From NCBI GenBank assembly GCA_964019415.1, contig OZ025871.1, positions 10,265,256 to 10,329,255 of the forward strand: a stretch of DNA of 64,000 bases. Direction: 5' to 3'. Origin of the DNA: Ianthella basta (taxonomy: Eukaryota; Porifera; Demospongiae; Verongiida; Ianthellidae). A program made the translations under genes and the position numbers. The notes beneath the pieces are model-generated. The model was given only the letters and a program-made list of their open reading frames with translations. It did not search any database and was not told where the DNA came from. How positions within the stretch are numbered: position 1 is the first letter of the stretch; every line of letters starts with the position of its first letter. This document shows, piece by piece, positions 502 through 60,061 of the stretch.

Positions 502-1402
502 ATGAAATCGATTGGTTGCCTTTTTGGTCTTTTTCAAGCACTCGTCTGGTGTACGGTTGCGGAAGGCGCTCTGTACAAGACAGTTGCCATCGGTGGACCA
601 GGCGGCGAAACCTTTGACGATCTGTCTACTTTGGGCAATGTGACGGATTTCCATCTACGACAGGTCCTCACCTGGCAAAATTGTGCGCAAGAAGGGGGCA
701 TTTGTAGCGATAGGATTGGCGGTGTGGTTGGGTTTCAAACTGTGTACAGTGTGCTCGAAGATAACACGTTTAACGTGTTGGTTGGAAAGAGTGTTGTGAC
801 AAACTTTCAGGATGTTGGCGCCACGTCTGCAATTGTTCTTGAGCACGGAGACTTCATTGAAAAGATGTACGGATATATCACCATGTTCCCACCGAACGGA
901 AGAATCTATGTACTGGATGGCGTAGGTTTTGTTATTACTAGACGTGGAGCATCTAGAGAGAGGGAGGAGATATTTGTAGGCAAGAATACGAGCAGCAACA
1001 GGTACATTGAAGTGCTCGGTCCATTGGTAGCCTTTTGGGGAAGTGTTGGAGATGCTTTCGATCAGCTTGGTGCCTACATTGATCCGTCAGTGTGGCCTGA
1101 ACGCCCATCCCGTATTGTGGCACGAGAGATGTATGGAGTGCACTTTGGGGACATAAGTGACATTTACTTTAGTAGTGTTGCTGCAAGCTCAAATTATTAT
1201 GCAGTAAGATTGCTTGACATCACTGTCTATTCAACTAGCACCCACATTACAGGGATTGCAGCCACATTCCAAAATGACCTCCGTGAAACTGTAATGTGGA
1301 ATGTTGGGACAGACAATGCTTATACTTATCAGTCAAACATATCTGTATTGAATGGGTCAGTGAGCATCGGAGCTATTCGTATTCCAATTGAGGATAGATC
1401 TG
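502..1402 (+). CDS. Gene 1 exon 1: signal peptide and jacalin-like lectin domain
   Basis: The leader is a 22-residue hydrophobic signal ending near VAEG. The lectin domain opens with the jacalin-type GGPGG...FDD motif (residues 31-40) and closes with a GSVGDAFDQLGAYI motif near residue 190, the counterpart of the family's G-x-G-D-x-(I/L)-D-x-(I/L)-G-x-(Y) end. The last 80 residues start a second, related beta-prism unit completed by exon 2. The donor is GTAAGT at 1403 after phase 1. Odd feature: leucine 85 and phenylalanine 90 replace two cysteines that genes 2, 3 and 4 all have at these positions, so a probable disulfide is missing here. Confidence 0.85.
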
Positions 1403-4400
1403 GTAAGTGGCCATATGCTATATGTTTGAGATCTAGTAGAGGTTCAAAGGGAGGTAGAGCACACTTGAGTGCATTATGATAATCATTGCATGCGGAGATA
1501 AAATGGGTATATTTGTACAGTTCTGCTTCCAAGAGAGCACCAGAAAGATTTTGGGGGCTTGAAACACTTCTACTGTGCTGAGAGCAAAGGATTTCCGTCT
1601 TTATGCACATGCACCCAAATGGACCGGATAATTGTAGTTTTATCACCTCAACTAACCTTCCTGCAATTTAGGGCAACAGCATGTAGTTGAATCTCTTAGG
1701 AGTTACATCAATTTAATTTTGAAACATGTAGTACAAGCTCGAGATTAAGAAAAATTAATGTTGAAAAGTTGATTGTGTGTTAATATAATATGCAAGCATA
1801 TGTCTCATCAATTAGTATCCTAACTAGAGTTGCACCGATATAGATTTTTACCGATTATCCGATTTCTGATTTTTAAGTGCCGATACCGATCAGATATTCC
1901 GATTTTTGCATCACAGTGTGTACCTTGGTTTCTTTGATCTATTGCCTGAAGCCCTGGTCCTCAGCCACAGAGAACGGCTGACAATCGAGTGCAATCATCT
2001 CACCAGTTCTCCCGTGAATACGCTGTGTGCGCACATCACTAATACAGCTTAGCCTACAGATTCATATGCCATCTCCGCTTTCAGGCTTGAAGCGATATTA
2101 GCCAGAAAGGCGCTGGACTACTTGATAAAGTCGATGCATTCTGCACCTCAACCATTTTGTTGAAACTCTCTGTGTAGTTGAGCGTTCTTGTCCTTCAGAT
2201 GCTGCACCAAATTCGTATAATCGGTCCATAATATTACTCGTGCACGCAATTCCTACCGCTGCGCGGATTCCTTCTTGTTGCAGGACTGGCACACTACGAA
2301 GTTGAGGTCCTCGTCGACAGCGAGGTAGTCCCATGCTGGTGAATCTTTCTTCCTGGCGATTCTATGCGCGCCGCAGACCCAGAACAAACTAACGGTAAAC
2401 GCTGCAACAACGTAACCACTCGACATAACACTTTACTCGTAAACGTCACGTGCTGGAGGTGACATAATCGCGATCACGGCCGTTTCGCTATGGCAGCTTA
2501 GTTTAAATGGCCGCAGATTGGGAATCGGAATTGTGTGAACATCACACAGCAAATATGTGTGCTCACAGTGGCAACCTATCGACACCAATTATGGGTGTAA
2601 TCATCACTCCCTATTTTAACAGTGTACCGAGAAACTTTCCCATGTGCATGCCAGCATTGCATCAAATTTGTACCTTTTCAAGGATCATGTTGTACTGTGG
2701 ATGAGGAGGTGGCACTGGGCATTGAGGCTCCACAGTGAGCAAGGGGCAGAGTCAGTACACAATATTCTCAACACTTTAGAGAGAACATACTGTGCAATGC
2801 ATAATCCACTGGAAGGCATGAAGCAAACTTCGGCATTGACAGCTCAACTGCATGCAGCCATCAATATAGAAAAAGAAGGAATAACGGAACAATCTCTTAG
2901 CACATACATAACATACTGAACTTATATATGTTTGTTATATACTTATTTGCAGATTATGTAATACACCTAGACTTATTTAAAGCTTATGCTTAGACTAGTA
3001 GTTACTGGGAAAAAGTATGCAATTAATCTATGAGCAAGCATGTAGCTAGCTAGCTTACACTATACTGTATAGTCAAAGCATTGCAGATCCAATTTAGCAA
3101 AGGTAAAGCAAAACCTGCAATACAGAGACATTCTCAATTCACTGAGACTTAGTCACACTAGCTGGGATCGTGGGGAAGTGCATTATGTAGTCACCTAGCT
3201 AGCTACCCTATACACATGCTGTGTTATGTGACTATTTTATTTTCGCTCAAAACATGAAGTAAGAAAATGGCTCAAGAATAAGCTCTCCTTTGCTATGTTG
3301 TAGAGTGGTTGGGCTATCATGACATGCATCGCATGTAGGTAGGAAAACCCGGAGAAACGCACAACGAGCCGTTTAATACGAGCAAATGTTTGCCAAAATA
3401 TCGCTAACATAACAGCATAAACAACGCTTTTATCCTTTACAGCACATTATCCACTGTTATGCTCACCTTGATACGGAGTTTCCTATGGATTGCATCCTCT
3501 TTCACAGAGAAAAGGCTATAATATATTCACTTCACGATACGAGGTGAAAACTTGCATACTATGGACAGGTTTCCAAACCAAAACTAAGCTGCCGCCATTT
3601 ATACATACGAAACAGCTGTGATCGGTAGGTGACGAAGGAAAAACCGATAACCGATAAGGTTACAGAGACCCAATATCGGCCGATACCAATTGCTGATCCG
3701 ATTATTGTTACAACTTTAATCCTAACACATAGAGAGCAGCTCCATTTGGCCGTATATTTCTGTCTTCCATAACTCAAGTATATAGGGAAGGATCAAGTGA
3801 TTGACTACGAATATATAGTTATATAGATTTAGATACATCTTCTAGGTATCTTTATCAACAGCTGTACCAAACATTGTGCGGGTTTTATTTTCACATGTTA
3901 GCCAGTGCTGCTACTTTAATGGCCGGTGTATTTTATTTGGTTAAACATAACTGTACTATTGTATACTAGTGTATTAAAAGTCCTTTCACTGTAATAACAA
4001 AGTAGCAATATCTGTGGCAGGGTAGTGAACCTCACTAACGAAAGTTAATGATGCTCACTGCTTTCGTGGAAAAAGTTGGTGCAAGCGTATGCTCCAATGG
4101 ACGACAGCAAGAGTGAGGCCAAAGACCAGTTTCATGCTGAGATGCAGAAGGTTGTGGAGAATGTAGGAAGAAGGGAGACTTATGGAAATAGAAGAAATAC
4201 GGAAGTTTGGGGTAGTGTTCTGGGGTGTCATGGGGAGGATGCTAGAAATGAGAGTGGGGAAAGGCTGTTGAGTTTTTGTTCAGTGAATGACTTGATGATC
4301 ACCAACACATGGTATCCACATAAGGACATACATAAGTACACGTGGATTTGCCCCGGGAGACAACTGAGGAGCCAGATCGATTACTTCCTGGTGAGAAGGG

Positions 4401-7400: not shown

Positions 7401-10400
7401 CCATGACAAAGCGGGGACTGAACAGTGCACATAACTAACCTTACTTCCCAGTGAAGGTGCGCCTACATGTAGAGAGCACCCTCGACATTACCCATGTACC
7501 ATTACCGTCTTCTTCTTCTTCTTCTTCTTCTTTTTCTTCTTCTTCTTCTTCTTCTCTGACAGCTGTAGCGCACAAACCAGAGGGACCAGGAGGATACCTC
7601 TTGCACCCTATTGCATCAATTTTGGCTGGCTGCATTCCTTTGTAGGTTAGAAGGCGGCGCGAGTTAGTGCGGAAGACAGCGCTTGCCACAACTCCTGCCA
7701 TTTTCAAACTACGTAATTAAACCGGATGAAACCGGAGTGACTGGTGCCATTGTTAGCAACTGCAGCAGTTAGATTGTGCGCCGTTTGAAGGACTTTTGCA
7801 GTAGTGTGTGCATTTCCCCTCCATGGTTGGCTTCCGATCGCCGTTTCTCGCGCATGGGTTAGCGTGGAACCTAGGTGCTAGCCCACACCTTGAGCTCCAG
7901 GATTATAGAAATGAGGTATAATGCCTGCACCAATGCCCTATGGTTGAGACTAAGTGTCTTGCTTCAGCTTAGCTGCCCACTAAAGAAAGTACAGAAACTA
8001 GAAATAATAAAAATTTTCTACAAGAATTGTAAGGATGTAGGGATGGCATAAAGAGGACAGCAACAAGTAAAGGCTACATGTTATATTACACAGTGGAGCA
8101 TTAACCATCATCCCTACATTCAAGGATGTAGGACTATATGGTGCAACATTCTTGCATGTAGGGGCCATGGTTAATGCTCCACCGTGTAACAGCCTTTACT
8201 TGTTTCTGTCCGTTTTATGCCATCCCTATATACATCCTTACAATTTTTGTAGAAAATTATTATTATTTCTAGTATTATGTATGATTATAACTGCTCACCT
8301 GCATGCTTGCTCCTGACACTGTTGACTTAAGCAGGGTTTTGTGATTGTACGACCAATTGACACTCAAATGCTCTATTAAATCATTACAGTTAATTGCCTG
8401 AGTGGGTTCGCTATTCAGCTAGTCTTCTCAGATAGTAGACCGCCTGAGGACATGGTCTTTGGAAGCAATGCCACAGTCTACAACATAACAGAGAGACATA
8501 TTGTTGGGTTTCATGGCCTGCTTGCGCCCAATGATAACTGTATCAGACGTCTTGGTATTTACATGCAAATGGATAGCAGTGAGCTAAAAGGTGAGTCACT
8601 AATTGTAAAAGCAGCAGATCCCATGCAAGCATGATGATATGGAATTAAACTTCATTTCTCATCATCGCCTTGTAGATCAATAAAATTTGCCTACCTGACT
8701 GATTCTTCTATGAAATTATTTTGGATTCAGAATTCTTTCTTTCATTTCTTTCTGGGAAAGACCCAGGAAGAGATGGCGAGATGAATTCTGAATGGAAGCT
8801 AGAGTACAGGCAATACCTTGAGTAGTATAGAACTATTGGTAACCTGTTCCTTTTATTATCCATGCATGATGATGACGATTCTTTCAGATTCCATGAAGGT
8901 CATCGCTGCCCTCCTTACCGCTGCAGCACTTCTGGTCACTTGACTTCTAGTTGGGGCAAAGAAAGGGAGTTCACGATGGATCCAAAATTAGGCCATCATC
9001 CAGGTTCATCATTGTATGGTCTTAAGCTTCTTTGCTGGAACCCTTCTTCTTCCCCAGTTGTCCTCCTTTGCAAGGATCTTTGCTTCTTGCCAGTTGATGA
9101 CTTGTGCAGTCTTTTGAGCATGCATGGCAATTCCATTTTTGAGGTCCATGTTCTTCACTGCCCTCCATTCTTTGCCCAAGTAGAATAAGTGACATGATCA
9201 GAATTGCTGTGGCGGGAAGTCCAAACCCTATATAATGAGGGCACCTTTTGTGGCACTTCAACTTACTGATGATGCCCCTCAGGGTCAAAACATTCAAGAT
9301 GAATTACTTGAGCTCGCTTCAACAGATTACTTATACTAATGCTCCTGAATCCGAACAAATTGTCACATCATCACTGCAGTGTGTCAACATGTAGCACAAC
9401 ACTGTCACTTAATGAATAGATCTAGTGTAATTGTAAAAACAACTCCTGCATGATCTAGGTGCTCAACTTGTAGGCAGGCACTTCAACACAAGTGGCAGCA
9501 GAGAGTGTTGTGAGAGCAGCCGCAGTTACTTCTGGTTTCATGAATACTGATAAGTGCATAAGTTAACCTGCTTTGTCTCAGTACATTCACCTGCCAGGCT
9601 CATAAATGTTACCCACTTTGTCATGTAACAGTGTATGTACGTAGTCAGAAACAAGTATTTCGAGTTAAAGAACTCGTGGGGCGCCGGGCGCCCCTGAACT
9701 CGAACTACTTGCTAACAATTCCCTATGTATGTTCAATAAATCAGATAGTTGGGGGTACAGCATTGAAGATGGCCCAAAAGATACATCAAGATACAATAGA
9801 TTGTTGTGTTTGCAAGATTTTCAAGTCTCCAGAGCAGCCAGTCATCCTGTGAAAACACCCCTATACCAAACTGTCAAAATGTTGGCATGCAGACTGCATT
9901 GTCATCTATAATAATTATTCATTTCATTTCCCCTGCAGACACCTGTAAAGTCCCCAGTCTGAGTAGACTTGCAGACAATGTCACTCTTGCTCTGGATGCT
10001 GACCTGCCTGAGAGGATACTGAATGGCACAGAGTTGAAGTTTGGCTGTATTGAGGGATTAGCTCTAGTTAAAGGAGGAGTGCTGACATGTGGAGATGATG
10101 GAATATGGCAAGGAGACCTTCCAGAGTGTGCTCGTAAGTGAACACTGAATGCAATTAGTTTAATAGTCTATAGGAATCTCCAATAATTATTACAAATCAA
10201 GGCACTTGCTTCACTCATTAATTTTACCAAAGTTCAGGAGTAGATATAAGTGATCAATGCCAAGGATATACACACCTGTGAAGAGAAAATTTGATGAGTT
10301 GCTGGATGGGTTGGTTACCATGCATGCATGGTCTCCTGTACATGGCCCAATAATGTAATGTCAAGTGTACAAGCTTTCATATGCGAATGATTGCATTTGA

Positions 10401-13400
10401 TGGATGATTGACGTCCATGCATACATGCATGTTGAATTCGAAGGTGCATAGCAATTTCCTTACTCAATAGATAGTGACATTAAGGGTTGGCTGGGGAGGG
10501 TAGGAAGATAGTCATTAATTATGGTGGGGGCATGTTAATTTAGAGATATATAGTACTATATGCTGGAGAGGGCATGCATTGGAATATATATATAAGTAGG
10601 CGGAAACTTTGATATTCCAGTCGTACACTGACAAGACGTCATGCCTGCAGTGTGGAATGTGCATAATCAATTAATTCTAAATTCATTTTATAATTATTAG
10701 GTATGTCTTAATTCTTTACTTCAGACACCTGTAAAGTGCCCGGTCTGAGTAGACTCGGAGACAATGCCACTCTTGTTCTGGACACTGACCTGCCTGAGAG
10801 GATACTGAATGGCACAGTGTTGAAGTTTGGCTGTAGTGAGGGGTTAGCTCTGGTTAAAGGAGGAGTGCTGACATGTGGAGATGATGGAATATGGCACGGA
10901 GACCTTCCAGAGTGTGCCCGTAAGTGAACACTGCAGCTGAATGTCTATGTAGGGATGGCAGTCATTGTTTGTATGCTGTAATACAAAAGGAAAAGTAGCA
11001 CTATCTTCGTATAGGGCTGAAAACTGGTGAAGAAGGCCCCCAAAGAGGAAGTATCTGTTGCATACAACTCAGAACTAACCTTATATTTCCCAGCGAAAGC
11101 ACGTGTTTCGGCAGAAAACCACCTCGACATTTTCCCTGTTTCATCTTCTCATTAATTCTTCTCATTCTTCTTCTCTGACAGCAGTAGCGAACGAACCATA
11201 ATGAGTAGAAGGAAACCTTTACTACAGTTTAATTTGCCCTCAAACTGGCTGTAGTCCTTTGTAGGTTAGAAACCTCTGCAAACAAGTTTCGCAAATGAGG
11301 GTTTCCGGGCATTCGATAGTTGTTGCTATGTGATAGACGACATAATGAATGCTGACATAGTGACATAATGAATGCTATGGCTACATTGGTTTGCCAAATC
11401 TGCATTCAGATTTAGTTCAATAGCTTAGGAACGCTGCCGCAGTCCAATTGGAGGTGTGTATGTTGCTATCCCAGGCCAAAGGCAGCTTGCGTGCCATTTG
11501 AATGACATTAGCAGTAGTGCATTTCACAACCATTTTCTAATTACACAGTTGGCTTTCAGTTGCCTTTTCTGTATTCTTTTCGGTAGGTTAGCGCAGAACC
11601 TAGGTGCTAACCCTCACCTTAAGTTCCAGGATTACAGAAATGCGGTACATATGCCTGCACTATTGCCCTATGGTTGAGACTAAGTGTGTTGCTTCAGCTT
11701 AGCTACCCACTATAAAAAGTACAGAAACAAAAATAATAAAAATTTTCTACAATAATTGTATATAAGAATGTAGGGATGGCATAAAAAGGACAGAAACAAG
11801 TAAAGGCTGTTACACAGTGGAGCATTAAGCATCGTCCCTACATTCCATGGTGTAGAACTATACAGTGCAACATTCTTGCATGTAGTGGACACTGAATGCA
11901 CTTAATTTAATAGTCTATAGGAATCTCCAATAATTATTACAAATCATGGCACTTGCTTCACTCATTAATTTTACCAAAGTTCAGGAGTAGATATGAGTGA
12001 TCAATGCCAAGGACATACACACCTGTGAAGAGAAAATTAGATGAGTAGCTTGATGGGTCGGTTACCGTGCATGGTCTCCTGTACATGGCCCAATAATGTC
12101 AGGTGTACAAGCTTTCATATGCAAATGATTGCATTTGATGGATGATTGACGTCCATGCATGCATGCATGTATGTTGAATTCGAAGGTGCATAGCAATTTC
12201 CTTACTCAGTAGATAGTGACATTCAGTATCAGTAGGCGAAAACATTGATATTCCAGTCGTACACATGGCAAGACGTTATTCCTGCAGTGTGGAGTGTGCA
12301 TAATTAATTAATTCTAAATTAAATTTATAATTAATAAGTATGTCTTAATTCTTTACTCCAGACACATGTAAAGTGCCCAGTCTGAGTAGACTTGGAGACA
12401 ATGTCACTCTTGTTCTGGACACTGACCTACCTGAGAGGATACTGAATGGCACAGTGTTGAGGTTTGGCTGTATCGAGGGATTAGCTCTGGTAAGAGGAGG
12501 AGTGCTTACATGTGGAGATGATGGAATATGGCAAGGAGACCTTCCAGAGTGTGCTTGTAAGTGGACACTGAATGCACTTAATTCAGAAGTCTATAGGAAT
12601 CTCCAATAATTACACAAATAAAGGCACTTGCTTCACTCGTTTGGCTGGGGAGGGTAGGAAGATAGTCATTAATTATGGTGGGGGCATGTTAATTTCGCGA
12701 TAGTACTATAAGCTGGGGAGGGTCCATGCATGGGATTATATATATAAGTAGGCGGAAACTTTGATATTCCAGTCGTACACTGACAAGACGTCATGCCTGC
12801 AGTGTGGAATGTGCATAATCAATTAATTCTAAATTCAATTTATAATTATTAGGTATGTCTTAATTCTTTACTCCAGACACCTGTAAAGTGCCCGGTCTGA
12901 GTAGACTCGGAGACAATGCCACTCTTGTTCTGGACACTGACCTGCCTGAGAGGATACTGAATGGCACAGTGTTGAAGTTTGGCTGTAGTGAGGGATTAGC
13001 TCTGGTTAAAGGAGGAGTGCTGACATGTGGAGATGATGGAATATGGCACGGAGACCTTCCAGAGTGTGCCCGTAAGTGAACACTGCAGCTGAATGTCTAT
13101 GTAGGGATGGCAGTCATTGTTTGTATGCTGTAATACAAAAGGAAAAGTAGCACTATCTTCGTATAGGGCTGAAAACTGGTGAAGAAGGCCCCCAAAGAGG
13201 AAGTATCTGTTGCATACAACTCAGAACTAACCTTATATTTCCCAGCGAAAGCACGTGTTTCGGCAGAAAACCACCTCGACATTTTCCCTGTTTCATCTTC
13301 TCATTAATTCTTCTCATTCTTCTTCTCTGACAGCAGTAGCGAACGAACCATAATGAGTAGAAGGAAACCTTTACTACAGTTTAATTTGCCCTCAAACTGG

Positions 13401-16400
13401 CTGTAGTCCTTTGTAGGTTAGAAACCTCTGCAAACAAGTTTCGCAAATGAGGGTTTCCGGGCATTCGATAGTTGTTGCTATGTGATAGACGACATAATGA
13501 ATGCTGACATAGTGACATAATGAATGCTATGGCTACATTGGTTTGCCAAATCTGCATTCAGATTTAGTTCAATAGCTTAGGAACGCTGCCGCAGTCCAAT
13601 TGGAGGTGTGTATGTTGCTATCCCAGGCCAAAGGCAGCTTGCGTGCCGTTTGAATGACATTAGCAGTAGTGCATTTCACAACCATTTTCTAATTACACAG
13701 TTGGCTTTCAGTTGCCTTTTCTGTATTCTTTTCGGTAGGTTAGCGCAGAACCTAGGTGCTAGCCCTCACCTTAAGCTCCAGGATTACAAAATTGTGGTGC
13801 ACTATTGCCCTATGGTTGAGACTAAGTGTGTTGCTTCAGCTTAGCTACCCACTATAAAAAGTACAGAAACAAAAATAATAAAAATTTTCTACAATAATTG
13901 TATATAAGAATGTTGGGATGGCATAAAAAGGACAGAAACAAGTAGAGGCTGTTACACAGTGCAGCATTAAGCATCGTCCCTACATTCCATGGTGTAGAAC
14001 TATACAGTGCAACATTCTTGCATGTAGTGGACACTGAATGCACTTAATTTAATAGTCTATAGGAATCTCCAATAATTATTACAAATCATGGCACTTGCTT
14101 CACTCATTAATTTTACCAAAGTTCAGGAGTAGATATGAGTGATCAATGCCAAGGACATACACACCTGTGAAGAGAAAATAGATGAGTAGCTTGATGGGTC
14201 GGTTACCGTGCATGGTCTCCTGTACATGGCCCAATAATGTCAGGTGTACAAGCTTTCATATGCAAATGATTGCATTTGATGGATGATTGACGTCCATGCA
14301 TGCATGCATGTATGTTGAATTCGAAGGTGCATAGCAATTTCCTTACTCAGTAGATAGTGACATTCAGTATCAGTAGGCGAAAACATTGATATTCCAGTCG
14401 TACACATGGCAAGACGTTATTCCTGCAGTGTGGAGTGTGCATAATTAATTAATTCTAAATTAAATTTATAATTAATAAGTATGTCTTAATTCTTTACTCC
14501 AGACACATGTAAAGTGCCCAGTCTGAGTAGACTTGGAGACAATGTCACTCTTGTTCTAGACACTGACCTACCTGAGAGGATACTGAATGGCACAGTGTTG
14601 AGGTTTGGCTGTATCGAGGGATTAGCTCTGGTAAGAGGAGGAGTGCTTACATGTGGAGATGATGGAATATGGCAAGGAGACCTTCCAGAGTGTGCTTGTA
14701 AGTGGACACTGAATGCACTTAATTCAGAAGTCTATAGGAATCTCCAATAATTACACAAATAAAGGCACTTGCTTCACTCGTTTGGCTGGGGAGGGTAGGA
14801 AGATAGTCATTAATTATGGTGGGGGCATGTTAATTTCGCGATAGTACTATAAGCTGGGGAGGGTCCATGCATGGGATTATATATATAAGTAGGCGGAAAC
14901 TTTGATATTCCAGTCGTACACTGGCAAGACGTCATGCCTGCAGTGTGGAATGTGCATAATCAATTAATTCTAAATTCAATTTATAATTATTAGGTATGTC
15001 TTAATTCTTTACTCCAGACACCTGTAAAGTGCCCGGTCTGAGTAGACTCGGAGACAATGCCACTCTTGTTCTGGACACTGACCTGCCTGAGAGGATACTG
15101 AATGGCACAGTGTTGAAGTTTGGCTGTAGTGAGGGATTAGCTCTGGTTAAAGGAGGAGTGCTGACATGTGGAGATGATGGAATATGGCACGGAGACCTTC
15201 CAGAGTGTGCCCGTAAGTGAACACTGCAGCTGAATGTCTATGTAGGGATGGCAGTCATTGTTTGTATGCTGTAATACAAAAGGAAAAGTAGCACTATCTT
15301 CGTATAGGGCTGAAAACTGGTGAAGAAGGCCCCCAAAGAGGAAGTATCTGTTGCATACAACTCAGAACTAACCTTATATTTCCCAGCGAAAGCACGTGTT
15401 TCGGCAGAAAACCACCTCGACATTTTCCCTGTTTCATCTTCTCATTAATTCTTCTCATTCTTCTTCTCTGACAGCAGTAGCGAACGAACCATAATGAGTA
15501 GAAGGAAACCTTTACTACAGTTTAATTTGCCCTCAAACTGGCTGTAGTCCTTTGTAGGTTAGAAACCTCTGCAAACAAGTTTCGCAAATGAGGGTTTCCG
15601 GGCATTCGATAGTTGTTGCTATGTGATAGACGACATAATGAATGCTGACATAGTGACATAATGAATGCTATGGCTACATTGGTTTGCCAGATCTGCATTC
15701 AGATTTAGTTCAATAGCTTAGGAACGCTGCCGCAGTCCAATTGGAGGTGTGTATGTTGCTATCCCAGGCCAAAGGCAGCTTGCGTGCCGTTTGAATGACA
15801 TTAGCAGTAGTGCATTTCACAACCATTTTCTAATTACACAGTTGGCTTCCGGTTGCCTTTTCTGTATTCTTTTCGGTAGGTTAGCGCAGAACCTAGGTGC
15901 TAGCCCTCACCTTAAGCTCCAGGATTACAAAATTGTGGTGCACTATTGCCCTATGGTTGAGACTAAGTGTGTTGCTTCAGCTTAGCTACCCACTATAAAA
16001 AGTACAGAAACAAAAATAATAAAAATTTTCTACAATAATTGTATATAAGAATGTAGGGATGGCATAAAAAGGACAGAAACAAGTAGAGGCTGTTACACAG
16101 TGGAGCATTAAGCATCGTCCCTACATTCCATGGTGTAGAACTATACAGTGCAACATTCTTGCATGTAGTGGACACTGAATGCACTTAATTTAATAGTCTA
16201 TAGGAATCTCCAATAATTATTACAAATCATGGCACTTGCTTCACTCATTAATTTTACCAAAGTTCAGGAGTAGATATGAGTGATCAATGCCAAGGACATA
16301 CACACCTGTGAAGAGAAAATAGATGAGTAGCTTGATGGGTCGGTTACCGTGCATGGTCTCCTGTACATGGCCCAATAATGTCAGGTGTACAAGCTTTCAT

Positions 16401-30444: not shown

Positions 30445-31357
30445 ATGAAATTGAATTATTGCCTTTTTGGTCTTCTTCAAGCACTCGTCTGGTGTACGGT
30501 TGCGGAAGGCGCTCTGTACAAGACAGTTGCCATCGGTGGACCAGGCGGCGAAAACTTTGACGATCTGTCTGCCTTGGGCAATGTGACCAATTTCCGTCTA
30601 CGGCAAGTCCTCATTTGGCAAAACTGTGTGAAAGAAGGAGGCATTTGTAGCGGTAGGATTAGTATTGACGGTGTGGTTGGGTTTCAAACCGTGTACAGTG
30701 TGTGCGAAAATGGTACGTGCAACAGTTCGGTTAGTAAGAGTGGTCTGAGCTATGATGACAGAGACTTTGATGATGTTGGCGCCACGTCTGTCATTGTTCT
30801 TGAGGACGGAGACTTCATTGAAAAGATGTACGGATACATATCCATGTTCCCAACGAACGGAAGACTATATGCCTTGATTGGTGTGGGTTTTGGAGTAAAC
30901 AGACGAGGTGCATCTGGGGACACGGAGGAGATATTTATAGGCGATACTTCGTACAAGTACATTGAAGTGCTCGGTCCAGTGGTAGCCTTTTGGGGAGGTG
31001 TTGGTGATACTTTTGATCAACTTGGCGCCTACATTGATCCATCAGTGTGGCCAGAACGACCCTCCCGTATTGTGACACGAGAACTGTATGGAGCAGTCCG
31101 TGGACGTGAAACTGATGTTTACTTCAATAGTGTTGCTACAAGCACAAAGTATTATGCCGTAAGATTGCTCGACATCGCTGTCTATTCAACTAGCACCCGC
31201 ATTACAGGGATTGCGGCCACATTCCAAAATGACCTCCGCGAAACTGTAATGTGGAATGTTGGGACAGACAATGCTTACACTCATCAGTCAAACATATCTG
31301 TATCCAACGGGTCAGTGAGCATCGGAGCTATTCGTATTCCCATTGAGGATGAATCCG
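30445..31357 (+). CDS. Gene 2 exon 1: signal peptide and jacalin-like domain
   Basis: Near-identical leader to gene 1 (FGLLQALVWCTVAEG). The lectin domain keeps GGPGGENFDD and GVGDTFDQLGAYI, and has the VCENGTC cysteine pair missing in gene 1. It is 12 bases longer than the gene 1 exon, with changes concentrated in the loop around residues 84-110 (including a SYDDRDFDD segment). Confidence 0.85.
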
Positions 31358-44707: not shown

Positions 44708-45593
44708 ATGAACTTGCTTCACCGTGTGTTTGTTCCTTTCCAAGTTCTCGTCTGGTGCACGATCGCGGAAGGCACTCTGTACCGGACAGTAGCCATCGGT
44801 GGAGCAGGTGGCAGCAGTTTTGATGATCTGTCTGCCTTGGGCAATGTTAGCGATTTCCGTCCACAACAGCTCGGCCTTTGGAAAAGGTGCGCGAACTTCA
44901 GATATTGCAGCGGCCCGCCTGGCGGAACGGTCGGGTTGCAAAGTTTGTATAGTGTTTGTCAAAATGAAAACTGCACCATGTTGGATAGAAAGCTAGTTGT
45001 GAGACGGTTTAGGAATCTTAAAGCCACAACTGCAATTGTTCTTGAGCATGGAGACTTCATTGAAAAGATGTACGGGTACATGTCCATATACCCATACAGA
45101 ATAACTATACTTACTGGAGTTGGCTTTGTTATTAAGAGACGTGGTGCATGTGGAGAGAAAGATGAGATATTTGTGGGCAAAAATGCAAGTATGGACAAGT
45201 ACATTGAAGTGCTCGGTCCATTGGTAGCCTTTTGGGGAAGTGTTGGAGATGCTTTTGATCAGCTTGGTGCCTACCTTGACCCCTCTGTGTGGCCAGAACG
45301 CCCCTCGCGCATAGTGGCACGACAGATGTATGGATGGAACTATGGGGTCAACAGTGACACATACTTCAGTAGTATCAAGTCAAGTACAGAATACTATGCA
45401 ATACAACTGCTCAACTTCACCATCTTTTCAACTAATACAAGTATTGTGGGAATTGCAGCCACATTTCAAGATGACCTCCATGAGATTGTGACATGGAAGG
45501 TTGGGACGGGCAATCCTTATAGACATCAGTCAAACATTACTGTATTTGATGGGTCAGTGAGTATCAGCGCCATTCATATTCCCATTGAGGCAG
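44708..45593 (+). CDS. Gene 3 exon 1: signal peptide and jacalin-like domain
   Basis: Leader VPFQVLVWCTIAEG, then GGAGGSSFDD; the variable stretch has RCANFRYCSGPPGG and VCQNENC. The end KYIEVLGPLVAFWGSVGDAF is as in gene 1. The C-terminal half is nearly identical to gene 4, with the N-terminal half more divergent. Confidence 0.85.
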
Positions 45594-48500
45594 GTGAGTA
45601 TGTACATGGGCAATGTGGAATGAAAGTCATCTAATTGTCATTTTAGATTACATGGTCTTTGAAATCTTGTGCATCACTGAATATAAACACTGGGGCATAC
45701 TGGTAGCCATATTTACACTTAGCTGTCAAACCCTGATTGTTACATGAGGAAGCCATATATCAAAGCAAGCTGCAGTGTGCTAATTTCGCATAACGCCACT
45801 GTTTACACTTTCACACCTCATAACACACTGCGTTGAACGGGGCTCTTATTTGCTAACCCAATCACTTACTAGCCATAAACAAACGTTTTGTCTACTGCTT
45901 TAGCAAAATGCCTTTGATATTCATCACCTTGTAAACTTTCTCATGAACATTGGCTCTGGAATGATGAGTGCTTGGCACTTGGAAGCATGGTCATCAACAT
46001 AAATTTATGCCTAGCACAGCACTGCATGTGTGCTTTTATGGCAGTGACATGTATAATTGCTCATGTAATGTCTTTAGTGACAGAGAAACTCAGATTCCCT
46101 TTCCCGAGTTCACTTGATGGATCAACTTGAAGGTAGGTCTCGCCACCCCCAAGTTCTTCAGTCGTTTAAATCCTAGTACACTCTCTAAAAAGAAAGTTCT
46201 TCCTTCATACGCTGCTTGTAGGACTTCTAATCATCTGCCCTAGTGCTGACTCAAGCGGCGCCGACGCTTTATTCAGCACGAAAGGCCGCGGACAGTCTTT
46301 TTCTTGTGACACTTCTCGCCTTTCGCCTTGTGCTCCGAGAAGAGCGTGTTCTCTAGTTTCTATAGTAACTTCAGTCAGGTTCGTTCGGTAAATTCATTTG
46401 ACAGCGAACGAATTCGAACGCTAATCGCTGCTGTTTGAATCGTAACAAGTCAGTTATAACTAGTACTTGTTACTAGATCTAATACATTACTATATAATTA
46501 TTATGGTTGTGTCCAACCTTTGTTTGGGTCATGTATGGCATGGTACAACTGCACGATTCTTCTACAGAAGCAAGGAATCAAGTAGAGCGAACTGCTATTA
46601 ATGAAATCTGGACAGCTGCTGAATAAGATTTAAATTTTATTTTATAAATAATTGCTATACTGTTGCATCATTAAGAGGCTGCAATTTTAATTGCATGTGA
46701 AGTTAACTTGTTGAGAAGTCAAATTTGGTGGATACTAGTTTAATAAGATTTTTGCCTGTGCAAAGGCATGCAATGAGAAAAATGTTTATATATTGATTAT
46801 TTCACTAGTTGCTAAATTCATTAAACATTCGCTTGTACCTGTTCAGATTAGTAGCCTTAGGGTATAGCTGAATTGATGCATCTATAGGTTAAATAGTGCA
46901 GAAGTGGCATTTACATGTTACATCACAATTTGATATAACATGTAAATCTTACTTTGTATGATAGTTGTCTATAAACTGGATGTCACTTGTAGCTGTTTCT
47001 TGTACAATACTATTAGTATAGTCAAATGAGTTTCTTTTGAATTATCCAGCCCATGGGTAGGCATTCATTGGAATACAAGGTTGCCACAATTTAATACAAA
47101 TGTATGAGCCATGCAGTCAATTGAGTCTTGAGCATGATTAACTCAGGAAGATACAAGGCCTTTCCAGAAGCATTCTCGTATACAAATAGACTCTTCTTAA
47201 GACTTTGTTTTCTTAGCAAAAGTCACACATGCATGCATTATTTGCAAACTAGTAGTGGAGCATCCTGAAAGAACAGGGAAGCACAATGTCTGTATTGCAT
47301 GCAGACTCAAGACACCATGCAGCCTTTGTTCCTATACACCAATAGATTGAGCCAGTGGTTGGAGGCAAGCACTGTTATTGGATCAATGCACTGTATGCCT
47401 TTAATGCCCACTGAAAGATAGCACTGTGGCTAGTATGATTATATGTATAACACCAATCTTTATTATTGTTCACTGTTGCATATGTTTGAAGCTTCAAATT
47501 TGGACCTAAAACTGCATGTTCAATTGTTCATGCATTTACAAAAGGCTAACAGTTACAACATTTTATGTGAGCAGATTTTGTGAATGCAATAACAATAATT
47601 ATTAACACACCTGGACCAATGCTCTTTACAACAGGTAGGTGTCTGAGTGGGCTGGTCATTCAGCTAGTCTTCTCAGATGGCAGACCTCCAGTGGACATGG
47701 TGTTTGGAAGCAATCCCACTTCATACCACAACATAACAGACAACCGGATTGTTGGATTTCATGGTATTATTGCAACTGGAGATAACTGTATCAGACGGCT
47801 TGGTGTTTACATGCAGCTGGATGGCAGTGAACTGAAAGGTGAGCCATCATTTATGACATTGTTTAGCTATACATGGCAGATTGTTGCACCCAAGCATTAA
47901 CACGTTGTAGAACAAGACAGGCTTGATCATTGCTATGTTGCTCTATGTAGGCAAATATAGATCTTGAGAAATGACATTGCAGATTATGATTCTAGGATGT
48001 GAGTAAAGTTCGAGTGCAAATATTACTACTTGTATAATGTACACAACTGTCAACACAATTAGTCAACATGATTGGATGCACGTTCAGCCAGTTAAATTTT
48101 ATTTGTCACTTTTCTTATACAGCTAGTCTCATTATGCACATACATACATACAAAGTGGGCATGCAATTAATTGATTCTAGCAATGTGGAACAATAAGATT
48201 ATATATAATAATTATTATCGAGCTCCATTAATTGTTTTCTTTCTTGGAGCGATCAAGGATGGCATGGCATAGTGACTCATTGCAAACTACACAGTTCAAT
48301 CATCAGCTGATGTTTGAAGGCATACATGGCCAAAACGTTGTGATCTATTGAAGAAATGCTATATAATGTGTAATCTGCTCGTAAGCCCATCACTCGCATA
48401 TTCTTTCTCTTCTCCAGACACCTGTAAAGTGCCCAGTCTGAGTAGACTTGCAGATAATGTCATTCTTGCTTTGGACACTGACCTGCCTGAGAGGATACTG

Positions 48501-50842
48501 AATGGCACAGAGTTGAAGTTTGGCTGTAGAGAAGGCTTTGCTCTGGTGAGAGGAGGAGTGCTGACATGTGGAGATGATGGAATATGGCAGGGAGACCTTC
48601 CAGAGTGTGCACGTAAGTGTTGTACGCTGAATCCACTTAATTATACAGCACCAACTGAAGCTTATTAGTTATCAGAAGTGAAAGAGTCACTTTGTTCAGT
48701 GCTGGTACTTAGGTGCAGGAAAGGGAATGCATGAAGTAAAGGTTGGCATATATATATAGTCACTTAGCTTGTTTCAATCAATAATACAGTGGCTTCCAAC
48801 TTCAATTGTTCAATGAATCAATGAATCATACCAATGTTTCGCTGCATGCTGCAGCCTTCTTCAGAGTCAAACTGAGAAGAGTTTTTATATACCTCTCAGT
48901 GTTTGCCTCTATTATAGAGAGCTGTTCGGCTATAAATATTATATTCTCTGAAGCATGCAGCTGAAACATCAGTATTATACTTATGATCTATCAATTCATT
49001 GAACTATTGGAGCTAATTGGAAGCAACTGAATTGACTCATGCTCCCAACAGCCAACTAAGATTATTCCTTCATGAATATGTATCTATAGTATTAACAAAT
49101 TCAATTGATGAATGTCTAATCCTGAAACAAAAACTCAATTAACCATGATATCATAATACACCTATAGGCATGTTCTCATTCAAGTTTCAGCTGACTTCTT
49201 ATATAGCAGACGGCATATGGGTATTTAATTATTATTAATGTACAGTAAGCATATATTAGTATATAATTTTATACTAATATAATTATGCATATTGTACATT
49301 GTAGGTGGAGACAAACTCTTTTTCCCAGACACCTGTAAAGTCTCAAGTGTGAGTAAACTTGCAGACAATGTCACTCTTGTTCTGGACACTGACCTACCTG
49401 AGAGGATAGTGAAGGGCACAGAGTTGAAGCTTGGCTGTAGTGAGGGATTCACTCTGGTTAAAAGAGGAGTGCTGACATGTGGAGATGATGGAATATGGCA
49501 GGGAGACCTTCCAGAGTGTGCACGTAAGTGCATGTTCACTTGTTCTGTTTATTGGGTAGTATAAATTATAGTTACATTGGCCTAGGCCCTGTATAAGAGT
49601 AGCTAATACCATTGCCAATACTAATTAACGGTATCTTTATTGGAATCTTCATAAAGGGTCATACCTTCCTAGTACATAGTTTATTTGCCAATAAGTTGGT
49701 TATCTTGGTCTTCTGTACAGAGTCCAATGAAGTATAGTGTGAACAACCGTTTCCACTTTACACCAATGATTATTCTATGTAATGGCTGATCGAAGTCCAC
49801 ACATGTTGAAGGTATATAGATATTCCTTATTTGGTAGATAGCATTGGTAACTGCTGGCTGGGAGGGTACGTAGAGGGTCATAGGGTGGGAACATGTTGAG
49901 TTATAGAAGGCATGGGGAGGGTCCTTGGGGATAAGTAAATGGAGTCTTTTGTACACATGTCAGAGTGCCACCTTTATGCAGTGTGGAATGTGCATGCACA
50001 AACATTGTGTGCCTTCTCTTTTCCAGACACCTGTAAAGTGCCCAGTCTGAGTAGACTTGCAGACAATGTCACTCTTGTTCTGGACACTGAACTGCCTGAG
50101 AGGATAGTGAATGGCACAGTGTTGAAGTTTGGCTGTAGTGAGGGATTAGCTCTGGTAAGAGGAGGAGTGCTGACATGTGGAGATGATGGAATATGGCAGG
50201 GAAACCTTCCAGAGTGTGCACGTAAGTGCATGTTCACTTATTCTGTTTATTGGGTAGTATAAATTATAGTTACATTGGCCTAGGCCCTGTATAAGAGTAG
50301 CTAATACCATTGCCAATACTATAATTAATGGTATCTTTAATGACTAGTTCAATAATATTTTTTGCTATTATCATAAATTTTTTCTTCTTATATACCACAG
50401 TGTCGTCCACAGGTGGTGCAGTCAGTAACATGAACGACAATCATATGCATACTTTAGGTGGTTTGGCGGCACTTGCTGGCATTCTGTTGCTGTTCCTGCT
50501 TGCACTTGGTACTCTGACGATTGTTGTTGCTGTAGTCCTACGCCAAAGGATTACGGCATCCAAAAGTTAGTGTGAATTTGAGTTGACATCCGTGCCAAAG
50601 CATGCCGGTTAAATTATTTTGCTAGTTGGTCAAATTAGTAAGTGAAGTTAATTTCAATAGGTGACTTGGCACCACTTCCCTATTCATTTCACCATCTCTC
50701 TATTGTAGATACTAATACAGGACAGTGTGTTGGGGGACCATATGTTGAGATGGACCTGAGTGACAGAGATGGGCCTCACTATGAATGTGTCCATCAGGAC
50801 ATTGGAATGACTGGGAACCCAGCCTACCAGCCAGTGCATTAA
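44708..50842 (+). CDS. Gene 3: jacalin-like / 3-Sushi transmembrane receptor (spliced)
   Basis: Exons: 44708-45593, 47635-47838, 48418-48612, 49329-49523, 50027-50221, 50401-50565, 50709-50842. All introns are phase 1; the exons total 1974 bases, 657 residues, without stops. It keeps the full plan and an intact tyrosine tail (HYECV, GNPAYQPVH). It is the intact member of the gene 3 / gene 4 pair, so it is the better candidate for a working receptor in this half of the cluster. Confidence 0.8.
45744..46473. mobile_element. 730-bp insertion in gene 3 intron 1
   Basis: Gene 4 reads CCCTGATTGTTACTAGAT without interruption (about 55904). Gene 3 has GATTGTTAC, then 730 bases, then CTTGTTAC-TAGAT. 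TTGTTAC is repeated at both edges (45737-45743 and 46467-46473), consistent with a 7-base target duplication. No inverted ends or coding region are seen; class unknown. Confidence 0.7.
47635..47838 (+). CDS. Gene 3 exon 2: second jacalin-like unit
   Basis: 68 codons, one more than genes 1 and 2. CLSGLVIQLVFSDGRPPVDM, NPTSYHNITDN, then IVGFHGIIATGDNCIRRLG. Phase 1-1; acceptor ACAACAG at 47628-47634. Confidence 0.85.
48418..48612 (+). CDS. Gene 3 Sushi exon 1
   Basis: LADNVILALDTD and GCREGFALVRGG. It corresponds by position and intron sequence to 57870 in gene 4. Confidence 0.9.
48811..49005. repeat. Inverted repeat with stem-loop motif in gene 3 intron 3
   Basis: CAATGAATCA...CATACCAATGTTTCGCTGCATG on the left is answered on the right by CATGCAGCTGAAACATCAGT...CTATCAATTCATTG. 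The left arm carries, on the minus strand, CTGAAGAAGGCTGCAGC followed by ATGCAGCGAAACATT. Confidence 0.55.
49329..49523 (+). CDS. Gene 3 Sushi exon 2
   Basis: VSSVSKLADNVTLVLD, VKGTELKLGCSEGFTLVKRG. It shares about 120 bases of downstream intron with Sushi exon 3, marking an internal tandem duplication. Confidence 0.9.
50027..50221 (+). CDS. Gene 3 Sushi exon 3
   Basis: LADNVTLVLDTELPERIVNG; asparagine replaces aspartate in WQGNLPEC. The exon with its upstream intron (from about 49640) is closely similar to the gene 2 cassette at 34680-35262. Confidence 0.9.
50401..50565 (+). CDS. Gene 3 transmembrane exon
   Basis: Phase 1-1, 55 codons. Stalk SSTGGAVSNMNDNHMHTLGG, then helix AALAGILLLFLLALGTLTIV and a basic RQRITASK stop-transfer. 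Donor GTTAGT is weaker than those of the other exons. Confidence 0.9.
50709..50842 (+). CDS. Gene 3 cytoplasmic tail exon
   Basis: CVGGPYVEMDLSDRDGPHYE then CVHQDIGMTGNPAYQPVH, stop TAA 50840-50842. One copy of the MDLSxRxGxHYE unit compared with two in gene 1; the NPAY motif is kept. A second in-frame acceptor 12 bases downstream (ATACAG, exon start 50721) would drop four residues. Confidence 0.85.
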
Positions 50843-54880: not shown

Positions 54881-55765
54881 ATGAAATTGCTTCACTATGT
54901 GCTTGGTCCTTTCCAAGTTCTCATCTGGTGCACGATCGCGGAAGGCACTCTGTACAGGACAGTTGCCATTGGTGGAGCAGGTGGCATCAGTTTTGATGAT
55001 CTGTCTGCCCTGGGCAATGTGAGTGATTTCCGTCCACAACAGCTCAGCCTTTGGCAAAGGTGCCCAAACATTAGTTTTTGCAGCAGCCCGCCGGGCGGAA
55101 TAGTTGGGTTGCAAACGTTCTATAGTGTTTGTCAAAACGGAAACTGCACTATGGTGGATAGAAAGCTAGTTGTGAGACGGTTTGGGAATCTTTCTGCCAA
55201 AACTGCAATTGTTCTTGAGCACGGAGACTTCATTGAAAAGATGTACGGATACATGACCATATACCCATACGAATAATTATACTTAATGGAGTTGGCTTTG
55301 TTATTAACAGACGTAGTGCATGTGGAGAGAAAGATGATATATTTGTGGGCAAAAATGCAAGTATGGACAAGTACATTGAAGTGCTCGGTCCATTGGTAGC
55401 CTTTTGGGGAAGTGTTGGAGATGCTTTTGATATGCTTGGTGCCTACCTTGACACCTCTGTGTGGCCAGAACGCCCCTCGCGCATAGTGGCACGACAGATG
55501 TATGGATGGAACTATGGGGTCAACAGTGACACATACTTCAGTAGTATCAAGTCAAGCACAGAATACTATGCAATACAACTGCTCAACTTCACCATCTTTT
55601 CAACTAATACAAGTATTGTGGGGATTGCAGCCACATTTCAAGATGACCTCCATGAGATTGTGACATGGAAGGTTGGGACGGGCAATCCTTATAGACATCA
55701 GTCAAACATTGCTGTATTTGATGGGTCAGTGAGCATCAGCGCCATTCGTATTCCCATTGAGGCAG
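54881..55765 (+). pseudogene. Gene 4 exon 1 with one-base deletion
   Basis: The first frame covers 54881-55276 (signal peptide and N-terminal half of the lectin domain). The second resumes near 55278 and runs to the GTGAGT donor at 55766. GGAGGISFDD, VCQNGNC and VLGPLVAFWGSVGDAFDMLG are all recognisable. It also has methionine for glutamine in DAFDxLG and threonine for proline in LDTSVWPE. Confidence 0.85.
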
Positions 55766-57079: not shown

Positions 57080-57283
57080 GTAGGTGTCTGAGTGGGCTCG
57101 TCATTCAGCTAGTCTTCTCAGATGGCAGACCTCCGGTGGACATGGTGTTTGGAAGCAATCCCACTTCATACCACAACATAACAGACAACCAGATTGTTGG
57201 TTTTCATGGTATTATTGCAACTGGAGATAACTGTATCAGACGGCTTGGTGTTCACATGCAGCTGGATGGCAGTGAACTGAAAG
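57080..57283 (+). CDS. Gene 4 exon 2: second jacalin-like unit
   Basis: 68 codons, almost identical to gene 3 exon 2; histidine replaces tyrosine in the closing LGVHMQ. Confidence 0.85.
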
Positions 57284-57869: not shown

Positions 57870-58064
57870 ACACCTGTAAAGTGCCCAGTCTGAGTAGACT
57901 TTTAGATAATGTCACTCTTGTTCTTGATACTGACCTGCCTGAGAGGATACTGAATGGCACAGAGTTGACGTTTGGCTGTAGTGAGGGATTTGCTCTGGTC
58001 AGAGGAGGAGTGCTGACATGTGGAGATGATGGAATATGGCAGGGAGACCTTCCAGAGTGTGCTC
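57870..58064 (+). CDS. Gene 4 Sushi exon 1
   Basis: DTCKVPSLSRLLDNVTLVLD, GTELTFGCSEGFALVRGG. Counterpart of gene 3 exon 48418. Confidence 0.9.
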
Positions 58065-58442
58065 GTAAGTGGACACTGAATGCACTCTTAATTAGACACT
58101 CACAGTACAGAATGAATCATAATAATTATCAGGAGTGAAAGTGCCAGGTTATATAATTAGTTTATTGCTGCTATTTTGGAGGCAGAAACATGCTGCAGTG
58201 AAATATATATAGTTAATGGCTAGCATAGTTACTTCTATTATTTGCAATACGGTTCTACAATTCTGACACAAATAATCAGTATGTCCTTATACATGTGCAC
58301 CTAAATGAATGTTCTAATGACAGTTTAATGTCGGCCATTCAATTTATACAGCTAGCTATGGTGCAGCTGATTTGTTAGCATTACAGCAAGCATGCATGCA
58401 TAACTATATCAAATTATATTATGGTCAAACTCCGGTCCCCAG

Positions 58443-58637
58443 ACACCTGTGAAGTGCCCAGTCTGAGTAGAATTGCAGACCATGTCACTCTTGTTCTGGA
58501 CACTTACCTGCCTGAGAGGATATTGAAGGGCACAGTGTTGAAGTTTGGCTGTAGTGAGGGATTTGGTCCGGTGAGAGGAGGAGTGCTGACATGTGGAGAT
58601 GATGGAATATGGCAGGGAGACCTTCCAGAGTGTGCTC
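58443..58637 (+). CDS. Gene 4 Sushi exon 2
   Basis: DTCEVPSLSRIADHVTLVLD and ILKGTVLKFGC place it with the gene 2 exon at 39915 rather than with gene 3 exons. FGPVRGG replaces the usual FALVRGG. Confidence 0.9.
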
Positions 58638-58699
58638 GTAAGTGCATGTTCACTTATTCTGTTTATTAGGTAGACTAAGTATAAATTATAGTTACATTG

Positions 58700-59470
58700 G
58701 CATGGTTCTATATATGATACACCATAGTGTTAATGGTATCTGTGTGTGTCTATCTGTCTTGAGCACATAATGGCATTTAAATGTGGTTTGCTCCACAAGT
58801 AATGATGTACTCCATAATACATACATTTCATCATGTGTTGGTGTCAGTAAATAGTTAATAATGATCATTACTGTGCAATTATGATGCATGTCATTAGTCA
58901 TGAGACCTTGTTTGAGATAGTCCCAATCATTATCATATATTATGAGTGACAATTGACCTTGAGCCTGTACATGTGCCACTAACATCCTGTACATGCACAT
59001 GCTGCAGTAAGCAGTACAGCCTCAACTTGCCACATGTAGCTAGTAGGTCAGTCCAAATTAATATGTAGCAAGGTACAGTGGAACCTTTCTAAGATTGTCA
59101 CTGTGTTAGGCAGCCACCTCTCTAAAACAGCCTCCCTGGACCCAAATAGCACTAACTTAAGAACACTGCAGTCTACTTTGTACGATATGTCGATGACCGG
59201 TTGACGATTCACGTTCACTGACAGCGTGCCAAGACTGATATCATTATCAAGAACACGTGCATAAGACAGTTACAAGACAAAGACCATTGTTACAGGAATA
59301 GTAACTACATACAGAATAGCTAGCATTTAACACAACCATAATAGTAAAGCACTATCTCTAGTAACAATCAGTAGTTGGCAGTGTCTAAGTGTTATAATCA
59401 CTACCAGTATGCCACATACTTCTGTAGAGCAGCCACCTCTCTGTAGAAATTCATTCGAACTGGCCCAAAG
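58700..59470. mobile_element. Insertion-like segment in gene 4 intron 4
   Basis: Gene 3 continues directly from TTACATTGGCCT to CCTGTATAAGAGTAGC; gene 4 has about 770 extra bases. TACAGTGGAACCTTTCTAAG at 59076 with GGCAGCCACCTCTCTAAAAC and a second GCAGCCACCTCTCTGTAGAAAT near 59430 resemble pogo/Tigger-type non-autonomous elements. A matching right end was not found, so the class is uncertain. Confidence 0.4.
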
Positions 59471-59610
59471 GTTGCCCTGTATAGGAGTAGCTAATACCAC
59501 TGCCAATACTAATTAATGGTATCTTTAAATTAATGACTAGTTAAATATTAATTTTTGTTTTGCTATTATCATAAATTATTTCTTCTTATCACAGTGTTGT
59601 GGTGCTACAG

Positions 59611-59754
59611 TCAGTGACATGAAAGACAATCATATGCATACTTTAGGCGGTTTGGCGGCACTTGCTGGTATTCTGTTGCTGTTCCTGCTTGCACTTGGTA
59701 CTCTGACCATTGTTGTTGTTGTAGTCCTACGTCAAAGGATCATGGCATCCAAAA
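59611..59754 (+). CDS. Gene 4 transmembrane exon, shifted acceptor
   Basis: The acceptor used by gene 3 (ATCACAG, exon start 59595 here) would run into TGA because gene 4 has lost five bases at the exon start. A second AG (GGTGCTACAG at 59601-59610) restores the frame: exon 59611-59754, 48 codons, with the same AALAGILLLFLLALGTLTIV helix. Confidence 0.75.
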
Positions 59755-59918
59755 GTCAGTGTGAATTTGAGTTGACATCCATGCTAAAGCATGTCAGTTA
59801 AATTATTTTGCTAGTTGGTCAAATTTGTATGTGAAGTTAATTTCAATAGGTGACTTGGCACCACTTCCCTTTTCATTTCACACCATCTCTCTATAATTAT
59901 TATATATTTATTTTGTAG

Positions 59919-60061
59919 ATACTAATGCAGGGCAGTGTGTTGGGGGACCATGTGTTGAGATGGACCTGAGTGACAGAGATGGGCCTCACTATGAATGTGT
60001 CGACCATGTCCATCAGGACATTGGAATGACTGGGAACCCAGCCTACCAGCCAGTGCATTAA
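59919..60061 (+). CDS. Gene 4 cytoplasmic tail exon
   Basis: As gene 3 but with three added residues after HYECV (VDHVHQD), then GNPAYQPVH and TAA. An alternative acceptor 12 bases later (AATGCAG, start 59931) is also in frame. Confidence 0.85.

Follow-up and report, generated by a model that had tools for sequence, protein, structure and literature searches.

Selectins carry a lectin domain at their tip, followed by an EGF domain, a run of Sushi domains that varies in number, one transmembrane helix and a short tail. Lectins of the jacalin type are familiar mainly from plants, where the jacalin-related lectins are soluble proteins, and only a few animal cases are on record. Here we analysed a window of 64,000 nucleotides from the sponge Ianthella basta (contig C4, positions 10265256-10329255; the genome searched comprises 209 Mb in 96 contigs), in which four homologous blocks (g1 to g4, window positions 502-60061, + strand) carry the exons of a tandem family of jacalin-like/Sushi receptor genes. 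Like selectins, the predicted proteins would have a lectin tip, a variable number of Sushi domains, one helix and a short tail. Unlike them, they have two jacalin-like units in place of the C-type lectin, and Pfam scans of the full g2 and g3 proteins found neither a C-type lectin nor an EGF domain at E ≤ 5. Single-pass receptors that combine a lectin with Sushi domains are a kind already known; jacalin as the lectin would be new. The reading that we favour, at roughly even confidence, makes the products of these genes lectin-like type I receptors of the cell surface, laid out as selectins are but with a jacalin (beta-prism) lectin; we predict glycan binding and, in most cluster members, uptake through an NPAY motif in the tail. 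If this is true, clustered membrane receptors joining jacalin to Sushi stalks would add to the animal lectin receptors a new layout that has converged on that of selectins. What the analysis shows is the structure of the genes, their homology, the size of the family, recent amplification of exons and, in the DNA, the juxtaposition of the head with other outputs.

Other described systems resemble parts of this layout. In the jacalin-related lectin ZG16p, which is soluble, and in related jacalin lectins, a GxxxD motif and a GG loop form the mannose site (PMC4059138). The window genes share with jacalin-related lectins (PF01419; BanLec, ZG16p) the GG loop and GxxxD of unit 1 as well as profile matches in the PDB, but they would encode membrane receptors with a Sushi stalk, and their unit 2 lacks the aspartate. 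Rice jacalin-related lectin kinases (PMC13165441) also couple a jacalin domain to a signalling output, although this output is a kinase and the system a plant one. The fester and FcoR proteins of Botryllus (PMC12065747) are likewise clustered type I membrane proteins with Sushi domains, and FcoR has YxxI/L/V tails; they differ in having Ig domains where the window genes have jacalin, and polymorphism and function are known for the Botryllus proteins only. A search of the open-access literature, with subscription papers mostly outside its scope, returned no description of a jacalin-Sushi receptor and none of an adhesion G-protein-coupled receptor (GPCR) with jacalin, in agreement with an earlier statement, made in the first-pass annotation of this DNA, that no family with this exact order was known.

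Three of the four blocks yield gene models whose frames close: g1 with 19 exons (502-27440, 1474 aa), g2 with seven (30445-42939, 649 aa) and g3 with seven (44708-50842, 657 aa). All 30 of their introns (18, 6 and 6, respectively) are of phase 1 and bounded by GT-AG. The exons follow one order in all three genes, namely exon 1, exon 2, the Sushi exons (15, 3 and 3), a helix exon and a tail exon; the signal peptide and jacalin-like unit 1 are encoded by exon 1 together with most of unit 2, whose remainder lies on exon 2. The fourth block, g4 (54881-60061), has the same exon set with two Sushi exons, but one base is lost from its exon 1 and five from its helix exon. Because of these two frame lesions, g4 is probably a pseudogene. 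The cluster extends beyond both ends of the window, with g0 upstream and a broken g5 downstream. The first-pass annotation had correctly placed four same-strand genes here and noted the phase-1 introns and the three models closing in frame, but the common architecture that it gave to all four holds in exon order for g1 to g3, with the tyrosine tail missing from g2, and the frame of g4 is broken twice. Two other possibilities were discarded: that all cluster genes are intact, given the state of g4 and g5, and that the pattern arose by chance, given an exon order repeated four times, 23 phase-matched Sushi exons and homologues at nine other loci.

The Sushi exons that had been annotated were confirmed. 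Pfam Sushi (PF00084) is over its cut-off in g2 and g3 (71.0 and 68.9 bits, three stretches each), and the spacing of the four cysteines is kept in 23 of 23 Sushi exons of the window. Most of the 15 Sushi exons of g1 lie in a tandem array with a period of 2.15 kb. Its six complete units, compared in 15 pairs, diverge by 0.46-1.26% in their introns and by 0-3 of 390 bases in their exons; this unit of two Sushi exons has been recently amplified. At a threshold of E ≤ 1e-8, with 141 candidates scored, 30 places in the genome match the Sushi subtype of the cluster, all of them inside nine close loci of the family, and the number of Sushi exons varies among family members. Sushi exons are dense on contig C6, mainly at 4.5-7.1 Mb; when 150 of 990 candidates were scored, most of the 150 listed matches fell on this contig.

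Evidence for the jacalin head comes from more distant members of the family. The curated cut-off of Pfam Jacalin is 22 bits, and all four distant paralogues scanned pass it with 33.8-39.3 bits, at 26-33% identity to exon 1 of g2. Furthermore, an 11-row profile of the family, searched against all PDB sequences, gave 16 matches at E ≤ 1; the best reached 6.8e-5, and 12 stood at E ≤ 0.0063. The names of the entries include jacalin-type lectin, ripening-associated protein, Parkia lectin, artocarpin, ipomoelin, salt-stress-induced protein and similar; two are dirigent-protein entries (E ~0.6), and we take these and the oddly named ones to carry jacalin domains or to be jacalin-related. On sequence comparison, the jacalin homology of the window proteins is secured through their relatives and the PDB profile. 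GxxxD is present in unit 1 at 11 of 13 loci, and, of the 12 exon-1 rows spanning the GG loop, 9 have GGxGG. Unit 2 is weaker: in g1 to g4, in the copy on contig C18 and at three distant loci it has CIRRLG or similar instead of GxxxDxIG, without the aspartate, and in the distant relatives its Pfam Jacalin score was sub-threshold in three of four (15.4-17.7 bits) and absent in the fourth. A scan of the genome with Pfam Jacalin picked out three places on C16 and a fourth on C23; the window has none of the four, and none is a close family member. The C23 place (C23:556319-556723, L010) is a stand-alone jacalin ORF of 174 aa with a near full-length domain (29.7 bits), with which hhalign gave a weak match (E 0.0011, probability 21%).

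A single hydrophobic helix exon follows the Sushi exons in each of g1, g2 and g3, as had been annotated. The tails behind it fall into two sub-types that have otherwise diverged and of which NPAY is the most constant part: g0 reads ...ADYEDV...NPAYLAVN, g1 ...HYEDL...NPAYLSC..., g3 ...HYECV...NPAYQPVH, with g4 similar, and the g5 tail terminates at NPAY. In g2 (GQHDQ...LIRQGI-stop) a TAA stands in place of the GAA of g1 and the NPAY codons lie just past this stop, so that tyrosine and NPAY are lost; the tyrosine tail previously proposed for these genes is therefore found in g1 and g3, which have NPAY, but not in g2. By eye, no tail motif fits the full consensus of the immunoreceptor tyrosine-based inhibitory motif as generally given. 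Motifs such as NPAY and YxxL/V can act as uptake signals, read by clathrin or phosphotyrosine-binding (PTB) adaptors. It is doubtful that the proteins are instead matrix or cell-surface adhesion molecules, which would hold cells or symbionts through glycans without uptake and use their tails as anchors. The frame of g2, open despite the loss of NPAY, and the variation in Sushi number between members would suit such molecules, but NPAY is retained in five of the six cluster genes (g0, g1, g3, g4 and g5) while the rest of the tail diverged.

On the receptor reading that we favour, the two jacalin-like units would form the tip, 1 to 15 Sushi modules a stalk of variable length, and one helix would lead to the short tail. 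Unit 1, in which the GG loop and GxxxD are kept, is the likely glycan binder; unit 2, lacking the aspartate of GxxxD, is more likely structural. NPAY in most cluster members, and YxxL/V in some, would recruit clathrin or PTB adaptors, and the bound ligand or cell would be internalised. The g2 protein, without NPAY, could then be a decoy or an adhesion form. The symmetric phase-1 exons would allow both the multiplication of Sushi modules and the joining of the whole head to other outputs. Sugar binding, internalisation and biological role are what we infer here, from sequence features; as candidate glycan-reading receptors, the proteins could serve sponge-microbe or self recognition.

Several results weigh against this reading. 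No window protein reaches the Pfam Jacalin cut-off: the whole g2 and g3 proteins score 21.7 and 20.9 bits, and exon 1 alone 16.4 (5.6 below the cut-off), 19.7 and 15.6 bits in g1, g2 and g3; the g4 exon-1 pieces gave no Jacalin score. The 649- and 657-residue proteins therefore bear out the Sushi part of the annotated architecture in such a scan, but not its jacalin part, which stands on the relatives that pass Pfam and on the PDB profile, with unit 2 the weaker of the two. The closer paralogue C1a gave no Pfam match whatsoever. The PDB matches are confined to the later portion of unit 1, at roughly profile positions 95-185, and an AlphaFold2 model built from a 3-row alignment had a pLDDT of 26. 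A 3-row family profile found no match in the PDB. A different fold for exon 1 is nevertheless unlikely: that smaller profile gave nothing, but the 11-row profile finds jacalin-type entries. Two of the 13 loci, C1far and C16b, have lost GxxxD. Ahead of the g0 helix exon, the expected AG is altered, another in-frame AG being available 12 bases further (by eye). With two of six cluster genes broken and a third without NPAY, the function of the tail may be weakly constrained, and the sugar-site, NPAY and YxxL readings lean on short motifs.

The extent of the family was determined with two exon-1 protein queries, each of which gave 15 rows in the genome, corresponding to 13 loci. Six of these form the C4 cluster (about 117 kb, g0 to g5), one is on C18, two are on C1 and four are distant (C1:13.73 Mb, C19 and two on C16); exon 2 has homologues at nine loci. 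Each of the four distant relatives has the end of unit 2 and/or a Sushi or helix exon downstream: Sushi and helix after C1:13.73 Mb, and Sushi after C19 and one C16 gene, while the other C16 gene is followed by a helix exon with no Sushi seen. Behind the Sushi exon of the C1:13.73 Mb relative, two consecutive helix-like exons can be made out by eye (L049 499-657 and 1048-1206, minus strand). A search for relatives in IMG/VR returned 43 pattern matches, none of which was confirmed. Gene copies and Sushi exons have been gained and lost, as can be read from this single genome; two of the six cluster genes are broken. The family is clustered, as first annotated. These cluster dynamics are what makes a role in immune or self recognition possible.

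Such dynamics might also be those of a decaying family, repetitive duplicates of little function that are open by chance and recent origin. Indeed, g4 and g5 are broken, g2 is truncated, and the C18 copy reads ATG then TAA and keeps a remnant tail with a stop and VYPAY. Nevertheless, exon 1 is open in g0, g1, g2 and g3, the ratio of non-synonymous to synonymous substitution rates (dN/dS) in exon 1 is about 0.17-0.45 between older pairs, and the architecture is common to relatives at about 30% identity, which makes decay very unlikely in our view.

Exon-1 dN/dS was below 1 in 21 of 21 pairs. Among five regions, the stretch 58-115 of jacalin unit 1 had the highest dN in 17 of the 21, with dN/dS up to about 0.95. 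Values above 1 appeared in a few small regions (for example g3-C18 116-205, 0.099/0.055; g2-g0 25-57, 0.087/0.08; signal-peptide pairs of low dS). Positive selection was rejected, as dN/dS for exon 1 never exceeds 1 and these small-region exceptions were not counted as evidence. Between g3 and g4, exon 1 is 93% identical in its last part and 77% in its first, and this difference suggests gene conversion. The peak of dN in unit 1, a tandem cluster with broken and truncated copies and a near-identical Sushi array would suit receptors for self/non-self recognition (allorecognition). Such receptors would be encoded by a polymorphic haplotype of variable copy number, like the fester/FcoR genes of Botryllus, and their jacalin tips would read glycans or partner proteins specific to the individual; FcoR, with its Sushi domains and YxxI/L/V tails, offers an analogue (PMC12065747). 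We nonetheless regard allorecognition as quite unlikely: exon-1 dN/dS below 1 in every pair speaks against it, no Ig domain was found in g2 or g3 (Pfam scan), tandem duplication is common in many receptor families, and the comparison is limited to the genome of one individual.

The head also occurs next to other outputs, on C18 and C1. On C18, L029 matches exon 1 plus the upstream flank of the cluster genes, exon 2 and two Sushi exons find their match in L045:1-1671, as far as about window position 58698, and L072:568-2766 matches the helix, the tail and the downstream part. The left edge of the insert corresponds to about window position 58888. The two edges therefore lie within a single intron of the repeat, which looks as though one period of the C4 array had moved into C18 and would fit a circular intermediate. 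The insert (in the region L073, L072, L029, L045 and L048, C18:1854000-1876500) lies inside an adhesion-GPCR array, which sets up two reciprocal chimeras. From L045:1752 onward the sequence matches the neighbouring adhesion-GPCR gene at 83-88%. After the head comes an EGF exon, which passes its cut-off with 22.1 bits, and then an HRM-like exon that falls short (20.8 against 26.2). Further along are HRM (33.4 bits) and GPS (39.3 bits), and a 7tm_2 piece whose 17 bits do not reach the cut-off of 20.6. The neighbour gene has SRCR and Sushi exons instead, and SRCR-like exons are also seen, by eye, upstream of the insert; SRCR exons in this array fit the pattern reported for Amphimedon (PMC4302439). 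Both chimeric ends carry stops, which counts against a working chimera.

In both C1 paralogues an HRM exon comes after the Sushi exon (27.6 and 26.6 bits against a cut-off of 26.2). They lie in tandem (C1:1530400-1536000; L043, L044), with the upstream HRM exon ending about 130 bases before the first ATG of the next copy; one of the two paralogues runs into its neighbour's exon 1. Across the genome there are at least 117 HRM matches (150 of 244 candidates scored) and at least 149 7tm_2 matches (150 of 427 scored). The exons that adjoin the head (HRM, EGF, SRCR and GPS on C18, HRM on C1) are those of sponge adhesion GPCRs (PMC4302439), from which the window genes differ in being single-pass; the main text of that survey makes no mention of jacalin or sushi, and full-protein Pfam scans of g2 and g3 found neither GPS nor seven-transmembrane (7TM) domains at E ≤ 5.

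The single-pass genes could be by-products of an ancestral adhesion-GPCR family bearing a jacalin-like head, since the head adjoins HRM exons on C1 and EGF-HRM-GPS-7TM exons on C18. However, the C18 copy falls together with g3/g4 (100/100 support), its flanks show arrival as one cluster period, so that the join of head and GPCR there is secondary, and the distant C1:13.73 Mb relative has Sushi and then a helix exon; we find this origin highly improbable. A wider reading is a modular lectin-receptor system in an early-branching animal, in which phase-1 introns have let the head be traded among outputs (an endocytic single-pass tail, a tailless form and an adhesion GPCR). One cluster period would have moved into an adhesion-GPCR gene in this way, and shared glycan readers would drive both uptake and signalling through G proteins when microbes or self are recognised; as a whole this is unlikely. 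The family does offer a concrete example, legible in the DNA, of how phase-1 exons are shuffled between adhesion GPCRs and receptors with a single helix.

Table 1. Exons of the four cluster genes in the window, with the basis of each assignment where given.
Feature	Window position	Strand	Basis
g1 exon 1: signal peptide, jacalin-like unit 1, most of unit 2	502..1402	+	ORF and donor; Pfam Jacalin 16.4 bits, sub-threshold
g1 exon 2: end of jacalin-like unit 2	8390..8590	+	phase-1, GT-AG; homologues at 9 loci
g1 15 Sushi exons; six complete 2.15-kb units (2 Sushi exons each) between 10725 and 23620	9939..25521	+	
g1 transmembrane exon	26897..27055	+	
g1 tail exon with YEDL and NPAY	27202..27440	+	
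g2 exon 1	30445..31357	+	whole g2 protein Jacalin 21.7 bits against cut-off 22
g2 exon 2	33658..33858	+	
g2 Sushi exon 1	35068..35262	+	Pfam Sushi 23.8 bits
g2 Sushi exon 2	39915..40109	+	cysteine spacing, Pfam Sushi
g2 Sushi exon 3	41174..41368	+	cysteine spacing, Pfam Sushi
g2 transmembrane exon	42560..42718	+	
g2 tail exon, stops short of NPAY	42848..42939	+	
g3 exon 1	44708..45593	+	
g3 exon 2	47635..47838	+	
g3 Sushi exon 1	48418..48612	+	cysteine spacing, Pfam Sushi
g3 Sushi exon 2	49329..49523	+	cysteine spacing, Pfam Sushi
g3 Sushi exon 3	50027..50221	+	cysteine spacing, Pfam Sushi
g3 transmembrane exon	50401..50565	+	
g3 tail exon with NPAY	50709..50842	+	
g4 exon 1, one-base frame break	54881..55765	+	
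g4 exon 2	57080..57283	+	
g4 Sushi exon 1	57870..58064	+	
g4 Sushi exon 2	58443..58637	+	
g4 transmembrane exon, frame broken by 5-base loss	59595..59754	+	
g4 tail exon with NPAY	59919..60061	+	

Other elements lie between and beyond these exons. Intron 1 of g1 holds retrotransposon pieces (window 4052-6560), one of them with an RVT_1 match of 108.8 bits. The g2 intron after the first Sushi exon contains a 426-aa ORF (window 35721-37001) with no Pfam match, which is repeated genome-wide: with 98 of 1642 candidates scored, at least 98 matches reach E ≤ 1e-20. Its best genomic matches are 97-99% identical, and many lie in open frames of about 1050 aa. Downstream of g4, on the minus strand (window 61315-61761), there is an apolipoprotein-L-like exon (PF05461, 30.8 bits, above the cut-off).

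Elsewhere in the genome, papain-family (C1-peptidase) pieces were read for 12 of 15 matches, with the active site out of view in several, and no silicatein-type active-site Ser was seen in them; with regard to a sponge origin this is neutral, since not all sponges make spicules. The readable active sites have Cys or are degenerate, and at C6:3129864-3135966 (L052-L054) papain-family copies have the catalytic-cysteine motif replaced by other residues (two of three copies read).

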